From a virus, in the IMG/VR virus record IMGVR_UViG_3300048912_000210, positions 1 through 37,512 of that record: DNA of 37,512 bases. One strand, 5' to 3'. Positions within the stretch are counted from its first letter, which is position 1. Every line of letters begins with the position of its first letter. The notes under the pieces were generated by a model. That model was given only the letters and a program-made list of their open reading frames with translations, searched no databases and had not been told where the DNA came from. The position numbers and the translations under genes were made by a program. Positions 25,700 to 29,993 of the stretch are shown piece after piece.

Positions 25700-25903
25700 T
25701 CAGGCGGCGTCGGCTTGGCGGATGAGTCGGAGGTGGCGACGTCGGGCGGAAAGGCGGCTGTCGTCGGCCCACTGCCAGCCGCTGAGAGCGTCGAGGAGGT
25801 CCGTCCGGTGCTGCGCCTGCTCCTCGGGCGTCCACGGGGCCGTGGAGGGCCGTGGAGGGCGTACAGGGATGGCTTCCTGCATGAGGCGCTCGTACGGGTT
25901 CAT
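25700..25903 (-). CDS. Small helical protein after the initiator gene
   Basis: 67 residues from ATG 25903 in an ATGA overlap with the initiator stop and with AGGA 8 bases upstream. It starts MNPYERLMQEAIPVRPPRPS, continues with PEEQAQHRTDLLDALSGWQW, and has a basic C terminus (ARRRHLRLIRQADAA). Being coupled to the initiator, it may assist replication (for example in helicase loading), but this is inference only. Confidence 0.62.
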   Translation of the reverse strand: MNPYERLMQEAIPVRPPRPSTAPWTPEEQAQHRTDLLDALSGWQWADDSRLSARRRHLRLIRQADAA

Positions 25904-26691
25904 GAGGCGGTCCTCTCGCGGTGTTCGCAGCGGGCGTGGACGGTGCGGCCGGGCCGTCTCGGGTCGGGAAGGATCGGCCGCTCGCAGACCGCGCAGTGGT
26001 GCCACGTGGTGTGGTCGTCTGGGTCTTCCTGGATCTCGATGCGTCTTTCGGGAGCGCCTACTACCTGAGGTTGGAAACCGACCTCAGCCCGTTCTTGGGT
26101 AATCCCTGGGAACCCCCCTGGGTTGTTCGGGGCGCTGTCCCCCGAACCGTTCCGGGCGCTGTCCCCCGAACTCATACGGGGCGCTGTCCCCGGAACTTCT
26201 TCCGGCGTACCGGCGGTAAGTTCCGGGCGCTGTCCCCCGAACTCATACGGGGCGCTGTCCCCGGAACTTTCGGCGGACTGATCCCACTGCGGAGTCCGCT
26301 TCCGGGCGGTCCCGCGGAGGTAGTCCTCAGCGGCCTGCCAGTCCGGGAACGGCGACACGATGAGCGCGTACCGGGTCGCCTTGCCCCGCTTCCGCTCGCC
26401 GAGGACACGGACGACGCCGGCCCGGATCGCGGCGTCCATGTAGCGGCGGGCGTCCTTCTCGTCGCAGCACGCCGCCTTGGCGATGTCCTGGATACGGATG
26501 GGCTTTCGGTCGCCGTTGAAAGCGATCTCGCCGGACGCGGCGGCGAGGTTGCGGAGCTGGCACAGGAGCAGGGGCAGGCCGGACCGTCGTAGGTAGGCGG
26601 ACATCTGGCGCGTCCACTTCCACGAGAGGGCGTTGCCGTAGGCCACCGGCACGCTGCCGGGGGCTCGGGTCTCCTGCTCGTCTGTGCTCAA
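25900..26691 (-). CDS. Replication initiator-like protein with iterons inside the gene
   Basis: 263 residues. The reading frame starts with TTG at 26691 (AAAGAAG upstream); GTG 26652 is an alternative. Residues 20-125 look like a winged-helix DNA-binding domain (WKWTRQMSAYLRRSGLPLLL, IRIQDIAKAACCDEKDARRY, then AAIRAGVVRVLGERKRGKAT). Residues 140-195 are Gly/Ser/Pro-rich, encoded by five DNA iterons. The C terminus (HHCAVCERPILPDPRR, HARCEH) is a zinc-finger-like end. A DNA-binding N terminus, iterons in the linker and a separate C-terminal domain is the layout of lambda O-type initiators. The protein would bind its own gene as the origin. Confidence 0.72.
   Translation of the reverse strand: MSTDEQETRAPGSVPVAYGNALSWKWTRQMSAYLRRSGLPLLLCQLRNLAAASGEIAFNGDRKPIRIQDIAKAACCDEKDARRYMDAAIRAGVVRVLGERKRGKATRYALIVSPFPDWQAAEDYLRGTARKRTPQWDQSAESSGDSAPYEFGGQRPELTAGTPEEVPGTAPRMSSGDSARNGSGDSAPNNPGGFPGITQERAEVGFQPQVVGAPERRIEIQEDPDDHTTWHHCAVCERPILPDPRRPGRTVHARCEHRERTAS
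26125..26267. repeat. Five iterons, probable replication origin
   Basis: Five 23-base units with core GGGCGCTGTCCCC lie at 26125-26147, 26149-26171, 26174-26196, 26220-26242 and 26245-26267. Unit 1 is a clear inverted repeat (GTTCGGGG and CCCCGAAC around CGCTGTC). Units 2+3 recur as 4+5, forming a duplicated 50-base block at a 71-base offset. The offsets place the units in all three reading frames of the host gene, so the DNA rather than the protein is conserved. They are on the linker of the initiator gene. Confidence 0.82.
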
Positions 26692-26762: not shown

Positions 26763-27644
26763 CTACTTGGGCTCGGGGTACGTCTCCGGGGTGGCGCCGC
26801 CCGGCTTGTACGTGAGGAGCCGGACCTGACGGCCCTCGCGGTAGGCGTTCCAGCCCTTGATGACCAGGGCCGTCATGTGCTCCTCGCCGATGCGCCCCTT
26901 GTCCTTGGCGAAGTTCTCCGCCACCCGCCGCAGGGCGTAGATCGGGTCATCGGTGTCGAGGCCGGCGCCGTCGGTGAGGCGGGCGAAGAAGAAGGCGCAG
27001 TCGCTCTGGTCGATCCGGCTGAACAGCCAGTGGCACAGCCCCGCGGTGCTGGAAGAGATGCTGACGGTGTTCCGTACGCGGGAGCCGATCTCGGCGGAGC
27101 GGCGCAGCTCGGGGTGTGCGTCGAGGAAGTGGAGGAGCTGGCGGTGGGTGGGCCGGGCGCGGTCGGCCTTCATGCTGCGTCGCTGGCCCTGGACGTCCCA
27201 CAGGTAGACACGCAGCATGACCGCGGCCAGCGGGACGTAGCGCTCCTCGCCCCGCAGTTTGAGGACGTCGGCGAGGCTGCGCTTGGCGCCGGTGTCCATC
27301 GTTTCCTGCGTGGCGTCGTCGAGGTTGGAGACGACGAGCATGCGGACGGGGACGCCCGCAGCGGCGATGGCGGACAGCCGGTGCTGTCCGTCGAGGAGCG
27401 GGCCGCCGACGATGGGCGGGGTGTCGAGGAGTACGACGTCGCCCTTGGAGAACTTGATGCTCTGGCCGTCCTCGACCCAGTTCCCGTCGCGCATGTCGGC
27501 GGCGTATCCGTTGACGACGCGCTCGCGGAGGTTGCGGTTGTGGGTGTTCTGCGCGAGCCACTTCTTGGCGAGGTCGGGGGTGATGTCGACGATGTTGTAG
27601 CGAGGACCCTCGGCGAGGGTGGCGGGTACGATGGAGGTATTCAT
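26763..27644 (-). CDS. ParB/sulfiredoxin-fold protein
   Basis: 293 residues, ATG 27644 sharing a base with the upstream TAA and preceded by AGGAGC. The N-terminal 120 residues have the ParB-like fold pattern: NIVDITPDLAKKWLAQNTHN, ERVVNGYAADMRDGNW, then GGPLLDGQHRLSAIAAAGVP, where the DGQHR segment is the motif box. The rest is helical (RRSMKADRARPTHRQLLHFL). In phages such proteins may bind DNA or act in partition or modification; the exact activity is not evident. It is followed by a terminator and lies next to the initiator gene. Confidence 0.78.
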   Translation of the reverse strand: MNTSIVPATLAEGPRYNIVDITPDLAKKWLAQNTHNRNLRERVVNGYAADMRDGNWVEDGQSIKFSKGDVVLLDTPPIVGGPLLDGQHRLSAIAAAGVPVRMLVVSNLDDATQETMDTGAKRSLADVLKLRGEERYVPLAAVMLRVYLWDVQGQRRSMKADRARPTHRQLLHFLDAHPELRRSAEIGSRVRNTVSISSSTAGLCHWLFSRIDQSDCAFFFARLTDGAGLDTDDPIYALRRVAENFAKDKGRIGEEHMTALVIKGWNAYREGRQVRLLTYKPGGATPETYPEPK

Positions 27645-28414
27645 TACTGCTCCTGGTTGAGGGAGTTGGCGACGTCGCGCAGGGCGTCGCTGATCGTGTT
27701 GAGGCTCGTCGCCCACCAGCGGCGGGCCTCTTCCGTCGTCTGGGCCGAGGGCAGGTCCATGTCCACGGCGAGTCGAGTGACGGATTCCAGGGCTCGGACG
27801 ATTTCGGGAGCCCGGTGGTGGGTCTGAGCCCGGTTGCGGATGAACCGGTCGTCGCCGCGCAGACGGTCAAGGCGCTCTGCGATGCGGACGAAGTCGTGGG
27901 CGGCACTGCCGAACTCCTCGGGCAGCGGGCGCCGCTTGGGCTTCGAGGGCTCGGGCCGGTCGGCCGGCTCGTCGACGATCTCGGCGTCGACGACCTCATC
28001 CGCGCCGGACTGGTCCCTGAAGCTCTCGTTGTATGTCTCGCGGACGGCTGCGGCGGTCGGGTGTCCGCCAGTGCGGTCGAGGGTCTCGTGCCACACTTCC
28101 GTGCGCGCTACCTCGGGGATCTTGCCGAGTTCCCGGGCTTGGGCCTCGTTGGGCAGTTCCACATTTGTGGAATCGGATGCCGCCTCGATCGACCGGACGA
28201 CCCGGGCCTGATCGAGCAGTTGGTACGCCCGGGACTGCGACATGTTGAACTCGGCCGTCGCATAGTCACGCCAGGACTCGTATCCGAGAGCGGCCCATGC
28301 CTCGCCTTCGTGGGCACGCAGAAGGAGGGCGTAGGTGCGCTCTTGAGACTGCTGGATCTCGTCGGTCAGAGCGCGCGCTTCTCCCGCCGTGAGGCGGTGC
28401 GCGAGGGTTGTCAC
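27644..28414 (-). CDS. HTH protein, ParB/KorB-like DNA-binding
   Basis: 256 residues, GTG start at 28414 (GTGA overlap, AAGGAGC upstream). The N-terminal helical domain (TAGEARALTDEIQQSQERTY) continues into WRDYATAEFNMSQSRAYQLL, DQARVVRSI, a helix-turn-helix of the kind in KorB/ParB-type regulators. The middle is acidic and Pro-rich (ADEVVDAEIVDEPADRPEPS). The C terminus is helical with RRWWATSLNTISDALRDV. It is paired with the ParB-like gene below. Confidence 0.7.
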   Translation of the reverse strand: MTTLAHRLTAGEARALTDEIQQSQERTYALLLRAHEGEAWAALGYESWRDYATAEFNMSQSRAYQLLDQARVVRSIEAASDSTNVELPNEAQARELGKIPEVARTEVWHETLDRTGGHPTAAAVRETYNESFRDQSGADEVVDAEIVDEPADRPEPSKPKRRPLPEEFGSAAHDFVRIAERLDRLRGDDRFIRNRAQTHHRAPEIVRALESVTRLAVDMDLPSAQTTEEARRWWATSLNTISDALRDVANSLNQEQ

Positions 28415-28953
28415 TTTTGCTCCTTGCTGTTGCAGGGGTCGCTACCGATGGGCATGTTCGGAAGCACGAGATGGAGGTCGGCGCCGAAGACTTCGCGGAC
28501 CGTGGTCGTTTCGGGGTGGCCGAAGTGCCGGATGATGTCCATGAATGTCTCGGCCTGCCGAAGGATCTGGTCGGCCTTCCGCCTTTGGACCCGTGCCCTG
28601 TGGGCCACGAGTTCCAGGTCGGCAAGCCTCAGTTCCTCCCACGCCACTTCGCGGCCGTTGAAGGGCGGGGCGAGGCGCTCGATCAACTGACCTTCGAGGC
28701 GGAACGCTTGGGCCCGGGATGCGCAGCAGATCCAGCGGAGTTCCGTGGCGCGCGGGTACCAGACCTTGCGCTCGTGCTCGCTGGCGCGACGCTGGAGGTC
28801 GCCGGTGCTTCCGACGTACAGGGGCTGGCCGTCGCCATCGGTGAACCAATAGGCCACGGATTCGCCGGTACCGGGCCAGTTGTCCTGCTGAGAATCGGAG
28901 AACGGAAGGCTTCGGGCGTGCTCGGTCGGAGCGGGGATCTGTGATTCCTGCAT
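28411..28953 (-). CDS. GIY-YIG domain protein
   Basis: 180 residues, ATG 28953. The core ESVAYWFTDGDGQPLYVGST, DLQRRASEHERKVWY, and later QAFRLEGQLIERLAPPFNGR fits GIY-YIG nuclease-like domains: Y-W, YVGST, Arg at about 59, His at 63 and Glu at about 93. The C-terminal part (VAHRARVQRRKADQILRQAE) is a basic helix. A -10 element TATGAT ends 6 bases before the ATG, so the message may be leaderless. It heads the minus unit with the HTH and ParB-like genes. Confidence 0.76.
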   Translation of the reverse strand: MQESQIPAPTEHARSLPFSDSQQDNWPGTGESVAYWFTDGDGQPLYVGSTGDLQRRASEHERKVWYPRATELRWICCASRAQAFRLEGQLIERLAPPFNGREVAWEELRLADLELVAHRARVQRRKADQILRQAETFMDIIRHFGHPETTTVREVFGADLHLVLPNMPIGSDPCNSKEQK

Positions 28954-28959
28954 GTGCCC

Positions 28960-29016
28960 ATCATAGCTAAGAAAGCGAACTCGCTGCCTTGCGTAACGTC
29001 GCAAGTTCGCTACGCT
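28960..29016. promoter_or_regulatory. Divergent promoters with inverted repeats
   Basis: Minus: TATGAT (28965 down to 28960), 6 bases before the ATG at 28953. Plus: TTGCGT (28989-28994), 16 bases, TACGCT (29011-29016), 6 bases before the ATG at 29023. Between them GCGAACT (28975-28981) pairs with AGTTCGC (29004-29010), and TTGCG (28989-28993) with CGCAA (29000-29004). The repeats cover the plus -35 and spacer, as for an autoregulated antitoxin gene. Confidence 0.55.
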
Positions 29017-29022
29017 GTGGGG

Positions 29023-29229
29023 ATGGCGACCACTCAGACCGAGCACCGGGCGAAGATCGCCGAGGCCCGTAACGTCCTCGGCGAGGTGATCGCGCGCACC
29101 CGTTTCGCTGGCGAGCCGACGATCCTGATCAACCGCGGCAAGGAGGCGGCTGTCCTCGTCTCGTACGATTTCTACGAGCGCGCCTGCGAAGCGCTGGGCA
29201 TCGAACGCGTTCCCGCTCCCGAGTCCTGA
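29023..29229 (+). CDS. Phd/YefM-family antitoxin, orphan
   Basis: 68 residues from ATG 29023, starting MATTQTEHRAKIAEARNVLG. The pattern ARNVLGEVIARTRFAGEPTI, LINRGKEAAVLVSYDFYERA is typical of Phd/YefM antitoxins, which bind their own operator and neutralise a partner toxin (Doc, RelE or YoeB type). No toxin gene lies next to it: downstream is a terminator and then a convergent gene. It may control itself, silence a host toxin, or be a remnant. The ATG is 6 bases after a -10, so it may be leaderless. Confidence 0.82.
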   Translation: MATTQTEHRAKIAEARNVLGEVIARTRFAGEPTILINRGKEAAVLVSYDFYERACEALGIERVPAPES

Positions 29230-29256
29230 CACCGTCGTCCTCCTCTCTTCTCTGTG

Positions 29257-29283
29257 GGCCCCGCGCCGTACTGGTGCGGGGCC
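29257..29283 (+). terminator. Terminator after the antitoxin gene
   Basis: GGCCCCGCGCC and GGTGCGGGGCC pair over 11 positions (one G-U) around a 5-base loop, 27 bases after the stop of the Phd gene. Confidence 0.72.
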
Positions 29284-29341
29284 TTCGTGCTGGGGGTCTG
29301 GGCCCGCTCCGCCTTGGGGGAAGTGCGGGGCGGGCCCGGGT

Positions 29342-29365
29342 GGCGGCCGCGGGGAGACGGCCGCC
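29342..29365 (-). terminator. Terminator after the gene at 29376
   Basis: A perfect 8-base-pair stem GGCGGCCG / CGGCCGCC with an 8-base loop, 10 bases after the minus-strand stop at 29376. With the hairpin at 29257 it separates convergent units. Confidence 0.62.
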
Positions 29366-29375
29366 GGGAGGGTGG

Positions 29376-29993
29376 TCAGTCGGCGTACTCGACGGCGGTT
29401 GCAGTCCACTTCTGCAGCTCGCCGGCGTACTGCGCGATGTACTTCGCGCTCGCCCCGTCCTGGGCACGCTGTTCACCGGCGCCCCGCCACACTTCGAGGC
29501 CCTCTTCGGCCTGCTTGGCGTGCGCCAACGCGGCCTCCCGTACCGCGGCACGAGTGGCCCACGTGTCGTCTGTGGCGATCGGCGTACCGCTGCGGACGCA
29601 CTCGCCGAGGTAGCCGTAGACGGTGGTCAGGGACATGAAGGCGTCGCGGTCGTAGAAGGCGGCCTTGTAGAAGATCGAGGCGCGGCGACGGCCCTGCGGG
29701 TCGATGATGTACGACCACATGGCGTGGTCCGAGCCCTCTCGTGTCCAGCCCTCGGGGAGCGTGGCCGGGGCGAAGAGCGGGTCGTGGCGGTCGGGCTCGC
29801 CGAAGGTGAAGCCGAGGGCTTCGAACTCGGCACGCGGGGAGTGGAGGGTGGTGGGCAGGCTCTGGGAGTGGACGACTTGCCGCTGTCCGGCTCGTTCCTG
29901 GTTGCCGATGACGGCGTCGGTGTCGCCGGTGGCGAGGAGGAGCATGGCGGTGAGGTTCATGCTGGCGGGGGTTTGGGTGTTCTCGATGCTCAT
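29376..29993 (-). CDS. Hypothetical early protein
   Basis: 205 residues starting MSIENTQTPASMNLTAMLLL, ATG 29993. The middle is compact (GWTREGSDHAMWSYIIDPQG, RRRASIFYKAAFYDRDAFMS). The C-terminal half is helical (AAVREAALAHAKQAEEGLEV). Proteins of this size with the same RRRASIFYKAAFYDRDA-type core seem common in actinophages, but I know no function. It forms its own unit between two terminators. Confidence 0.72.
   Translation of the reverse strand: MSIENTQTPASMNLTAMLLLATGDTDAVIGNQERAGQRQVVHSQSLPTTLHSPRAEFEALGFTFGEPDRHDPLFAPATLPEGWTREGSDHAMWSYIIDPQGRRRASIFYKAAFYDRDAFMSLTTVYGYLGECVRSGTPIATDDTWATRAAVREAALAHAKQAEEGLEVWRGAGEQRAQDGASAKYIAQYAGELQKWTATAVEYAD

Follow-up and report, generated by a model that had tools for sequence, protein, structure and literature searches.

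A gene of Streptomyces phages very probably encodes a replication initiator and holds a candidate origin in its own coding sequence

In phage lambda, four inverted-repeat iterons are located centrally within the gene of the initiator O with an adjoining AT-rich tract, and the lambda and Stx iterons that have been compared are nearly identical to each other (PMC7466680). In the staphylococcal RepA_N plasmids pSK41 and pTZ2162, the Rep boxes are central in rep and the linker of the initiator is encoded by the ori (PMC5703833); moreover, the C-terminal domain of the pSK41 protein contacts the host DnaG (PMC5703833). Finally, RepA of the PLE satellites of Vibrio cholerae has a RepA_N-like fold and binds semi-palindromic iterons (PMC7145576).

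Here, we analysed a 37.5-kb virus record (IMGVR_UViG_3300048912_000210; the whole stretch of 37,512 nucleotides is referred to as the window) that contains a gene for a 263-residue protein. The TTG start of this gene is backed by an N terminus, [LVM]STDEQ, that is conserved among relatives. Its named relatives are in the Streptomyces phages OnionKnight and Chymera, further ones are in Streptomyces genomes, and all relatives with a named host belong to Streptomyces phages or Streptomyces genomes. We propose a function for this Streptomyces phage gene, for which OnionKnight gp46 and the Chymera homologue carry the annotation 'hypothetical protein' only, and map a candidate origin to it: the product is very probably a phage replication initiator, and the origin would lie within the coding sequence of the gene itself. 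We infer binding of the protein to the iterons from coevolution, and origin activity, unwinding and replisome recruitment from the anatomy of the locus, which has the following features.

25900..26691, minus strand: putative initiator gene, 263 aa, TTG start
26308..26655, minus strand: predicted N-terminal winged-helix DNA-binding domain, residues 13-128 (AlphaFold2 pLDDT mostly >90)
26419..26463, minus strand: predicted recognition helix, residues 78-91, with D77, the putative specificity residue, at its N-terminal start (AlphaFold2 secondary structure and covariation)
26245..26267: iteron unit 1, first in the coding direction
26220..26242: iteron unit 2
26208..26218: small palindrome TACCGGCGGTA (TACCGnCGGTA), located between units 2 and 3
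26174..26196: iteron unit 3
26149..26171: iteron unit 4
26125..26147: iteron unit 5, adjoining the unstable segment
26060..26122: candidate DNA unwinding element of low stability; contains three NCCA repeats at intervals of about one helical turn
26065..26087: inverted repeat CTGAGGT-N9-ACCTCAG, unique in the window
25927..25995, minus strand: C-terminal CxxC...HxxC putative zinc domain, residues 233-255 (pLDDT ~83-91)

A preliminary description of the window had reported five shared 23-base units at 26125-26267, and these are exact and lie within the gene. GGGCGCTGTCCCC is present exactly in all five units, the shuffle expectation being 0 for 23-mer matches and 0.25 for a 13-mer allowing one mismatch, and the five units are found nowhere else within the record. 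Their offsets of 0, 24, 49, 95 and 120 correspond to frames 0, 0, 1, 2 and 0; therefore, all three reading frames are used, as had been claimed, with three units sharing one frame. The units are all interrupted inverted repeats, with CGGGG-N7-CCCCG as the 17-bp core, a symmetry that had been missed. The 50-base block noted earlier is an exact duplication (26149-26198 is identical to 26220-26269); however, the suggestion that it reflects expansion did not hold because the five-unit spacing is ancestral across relatives, and the identity of the 50-mers more probably reflects homogenisation among units that were already present. The palindrome at 26208-26218 is kept with at most one mismatch in 24 of 51 relatives and is a possible site for a second factor.

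Homologues were drawn from phage records, IMG/VR and Streptomyces genomes, and 51 were left after removal of duplicates and fragments; one set of homologues was fetched with two degenerate patterns taken from the N-terminal domain and was, thus, not chosen for the repeats. A later set added 11 family members, all scoring >120, and brought the full-length relatives examined, which are from Streptomyces phages and prophages, to 62; a search of the genus Streptomyces that was redone from another centre turned up the genomes already collected. To determine whether any homologue keeps the gene while losing the repeats, we examined both sets and found none: 4-7 dyad units are present in the linker in 62/62 full-length relatives (51/51 in the first set and 11/11 new members), and arrays are absent only from relatives that consist of the DNA-binding domain alone and also have no linker. 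The last three units are spaced by exactly 25 and 24 nt in 49 of 53 loci, 38 of which have a further unit 46 nt before.

The unit types among the relatives are diverse and include GGGGGACAGCGCCCC, GGGGGACCGCCCCCC, GGGTCACCGCGACCC, GGGCCACTCCGGCCC and GGGCCACAGTGGCAC. Mismatches per 17 positions amount to 0.69 within one phage (different array positions) versus 4.50 between phages (same array position), i.e. the array type is homogenised inside each phage and divergent between phages. The arms change in a compensatory manner, with pair 5:13 being GC in 145 cases, CG in 45 and TA in 33, and dyad symmetry is kept across 97 distinct 17-mers. Moreover, synonymous-codon identity rises from ~0.6 in the larger part of the DNA-binding domain to mostly 0.7-0.9 in the array, and high values are also seen close to the C terminus. 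The sites are confined to the array in the window, in OnionKnight and in five of six other records, with two stray matches carrying one mismatch; the variant of the sixth record fell outside the search pattern. A scan of viral contigs with the divergent member L075 found no relatives.

The base at position 5 of the half-site follows residue 77 of the protein. In the first set, Asp occurs with G in 30/30 cases, Arg with C in 8/8, and Ser, Asn or Ala with T in 11/13, the two exceptions being L040, which is a tie, and L077. Residue 77 stands alone among 116 variable columns of the domain in tracking this base: its raw mutual information (MI) is 91% of the site entropy compared with 38% for the next column, and the corrected values are 0.81 and 0.25, respectively. 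Residue 77 and the site base each change ~10-11 times on the tree. An independent-pairs sign test on the starred branches yielded 1-2 pairs, which is short of significance; therefore, we used simulation of the base on a tree built without the residue-77 column, and the observed MI of 1.23 bits exceeded 5000 of 5000 simulations, in which the maximum was 0.50. Finally, the rule predicted the site correctly in 11/11 relatives fetched afterwards. Read on the opposite strand, Asp pairs with C, Arg with G, and Ser, Asn or Ala with A:T, in agreement with ordinary side-chain/base preferences. These data strongly support that selection maintains the iterons as the target of the protein encoded by the same gene; the covariation is the main evidence for this and argues against a different binder. 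We lean slightly towards the view that origin identity is set by one residue, located where the recognition helix begins, through the code D:G, R:C and S/N/A:T, and that phages repeatedly switch this residue and rewrite all internal iterons in concert.

Beside the last iteron, the DNA is unusually unstable. In the window, 60-nt segments starting at 26020-26060 are in the 96-99th percentile of instability; in the relatives, duplex instability of the 60 nt that follow the final iteron reaches at least the 90th percentile in 49/49 loci (median 99.4). The segment is less stable than synonymous recodings with the gene's own codons at z >2 in 51/51 relatives (median z +5.5) and, thus, its instability exceeds the needs of codon choice. 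Three NCCA repeats, 9-13 nt apart, are present in 43/51 relatives, and the inverted repeat CTGAGGT-N9-ACCTCAG is kept with at most two mismatches in 39/51.

The AlphaFold2 model agrees with the earlier placement of the array in a linker between a winged-helix N terminus (residues 13-128) and a zinc-like CxxC...HxxC C terminus: residues 130-227, which coincide with the array, are predicted to be disordered. Within the winged-helix domain, the model has a helix at 67-73 and the recognition helix at 78-91, followed by a two-stranded wing. In VIA-align, the top matches to this domain are the N-terminal domains of staphylococcal RepA initiators (4pql, Z 8.2; 4pt7, Z 8.0; 5kbj, Z 7.1), a Z of ~8 being near the winged-helix background, and the BFVD fold matches include GpO-N proteins. 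Pfam HTH_36 is matched weakly in 8/15 members and the O-like PHROG_391 weakly in 9/15 (E 0.004-0.008), whereas RepA_N is absent from the Pfam matches of P0001 or A1 members at E up to 1, and a PDB sequence search with the family profile gave nothing significant.

The locus had been described as a lambda-O-style origin. This stands for the layout and the probable mechanism, but not for homology to lambda O, for which hhalign gave an alignment that is in register with a probability of 0.1% and is not significant. As in lambda, the initiator gene encodes an N-terminal DNA-binding domain and carries inverted-repeat iterons in its central part; the array is comparable to the 4-6 imperfect inverted-repeat iterons, ~20-24 bp apart, of lambdoid/Stx phages, and the unstable segment is on the C-terminal side of the iterons, although here it is a relative instability in a GC-rich genome rather than absolute AT-richness. 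Unlike in lambda, the iteron centres are GC-rich instead of A tracts, the C terminus is zinc-like and no P-like loader gene was recognised; moreover, the iteron type varies strongly among the Streptomyces relatives, while those of lambda and Stx phages are nearly identical (PMC7466680).

The RepA_N initiators are the top-ranked, though near-background, structural match for the predicted winged-helix N-terminal domain, and the Streptomyces genes resemble theirs in that repeats within the initiator gene encode the linker; a contact of the C-terminal domain to the host replisome would be a further similarity. However, the Streptomyces protein lacks a RepA_N match in Pfam and is from a phage rather than a plasmid, the plasmid iterons are A-tract iterons, and the C-terminal domains are unrelated. 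PLE RepA is likewise the initiator of a mobile element with semi-palindromic iterons, but its origin is in a non-coding region and its replication needs the helper phage ICP1. Based on sequence comparisons, we file the putative Streptomyces initiators as a separate, unannotated family that shares the layout of lambda O and the RepA_N plasmids; in the literature searched, the coverage of which was partial, we found no description of this family.

Among the genes at 19 loci compared, the initiator gene alone is common to all and the neighbouring genes are mosaic, as expected for a self-contained module. A YqaJ/RecE-type exonuclease, an Erf annealing protein, a DnaQ-like exonuclease, RuvC and WhiB are among the window genes tested, and no helicase, primase, replicative polymerase or other initiator was recognised in this set; similarly, no helicase, primase, replicative polymerase or other initiator is annotated in OnionKnight or Chymera. 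No helicase loader was recognised among the neighbours of the initiator gene, loaders being diverse as a class. Two weak matches to DnaA boxes, which is below chance expectation, were found, none of them near the array. GC skew was considered as an origin signal and rejected as uninformative since it tracks gene strand. The gene directly upstream of the initiator gene (26763-27644, minus strand) belongs to PHROG 5931, the function of which is not known (E 1.7e-71).

We suggest that homodimers of the N-terminal winged-helix domain would bind the five dyad iterons, a binding mode that follows from the dyad symmetry, and that residue 77 would read base 5 in each half-site. The bound initiators would wrap the iterons into a complex, and this would open the unstable DNA that adjoins the array on its C-terminal side. 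Host helicase and primase would then be recruited by the zinc-like C-terminal domain, which is a probable contact to the host replisome, perhaps together with a partner; this step is proposed because the phage is without a recognisable helicase, primase or replicative polymerase.

Because the evidence from covariation all bears on binding and not on replication, and because the winged-helix regulators MarR, CRP and Fur are equally good fold matches, the protein could instead bind the internal array as an autoregulator or roadblock, i.e. the array would be an operator rather than a place of replication start. We consider this improbable: the array is in the middle of the gene and not at a promoter, its 4-7 sites are widely spaced, the linker is predicted to be disordered, the array is followed by a conserved unstable segment that is not explained by codon choice, and the exact layout is shared by known initiators (PMC7466680; PMC5703833). 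A chance GC-rich coding repeat or a low-complexity peptide repeat without DNA function would fit a GC-rich linker in a disordered region, but is scarcely credible given that three frames are used, that the dyads change in a compensatory manner over the 97 17-mers and that the units covary with a distant codon, all of which are comparative or sequence data that contradict it.

The array could also be a centromere or partition site, or an incompatibility or immunity site, of an extrachromosomal phage with the protein acting as an adaptor. TubR is among the weak fold matches and the flanking gene at 26763-27644 has a marginal ParB-like PHROG match (E 7e-4); however, this gene is not conserved alongside the initiator gene, no ParA or TubZ partner was found, and OnionKnight and Chymera both encode tyrosine integrases according to their annotations and, thus, do not need extrachromosomal partition. 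We regard this alternative as very unlikely, and the reading as initiator and internal origin is the one we retain.

On the initiator reading, the relatives would represent naturally occurring initiator/origin pairs whose specificity has been switched many times at one residue, and the co-change of an initiator and a multi-copy origin inside one gene becomes directly testable. The origin type could switch while the layout stays fixed, and the module could plausibly supply compatible replicons for use in Streptomyces vectors. If the residue-77 code is true, switching would give mutually compatible replicons and, more speculatively, could help phages to avoid being titrated by ectopic origins or satellites.

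Divergent relatives extend these observations. In L113, from a Streptomyces genome, the winged helix is divergent and the array consists of six similarly spaced CCGGACAGCGTCCATGG units, while the C-terminal zinc domain is close to that of the window protein, a pattern in line with the initiator reading; it looks like a swap of domain plus origin, similar to the pPR9 hybrid among RepA_N plasmids, which swaps the N-terminal domain plus ori. The very distant L112 (score 39), also in a Streptomyces genome, differs again in its DNA-binding domain and has five linker units around TCGTCCGCACGTGCGGA at similar spacing, which suggests that the layout extends beyond the family of the window protein; L112 departs from the residue-77 code at a place where the alignment is unreliable. 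A plasmid search returned one distant relative, L083 (5974-6803), on a Streptomyces cellulosae plasmid, which consists of the DNA-binding domain only, without linker or repeats, and is therefore neither support nor refutation. L083 and L111, which has the same DNA-binding-domain-only form, are each followed by a gene for a small cysteine-containing protein, possibly representing a two-gene version of the initiator module. Elsewhere in the window, a short ORF at 28954-29229 (plus strand) looks like a Phd/YefM-type antitoxin and the ORF beside it at 28411-29409 (minus strand) like a GIY-YIG nuclease, both as judged by eye.
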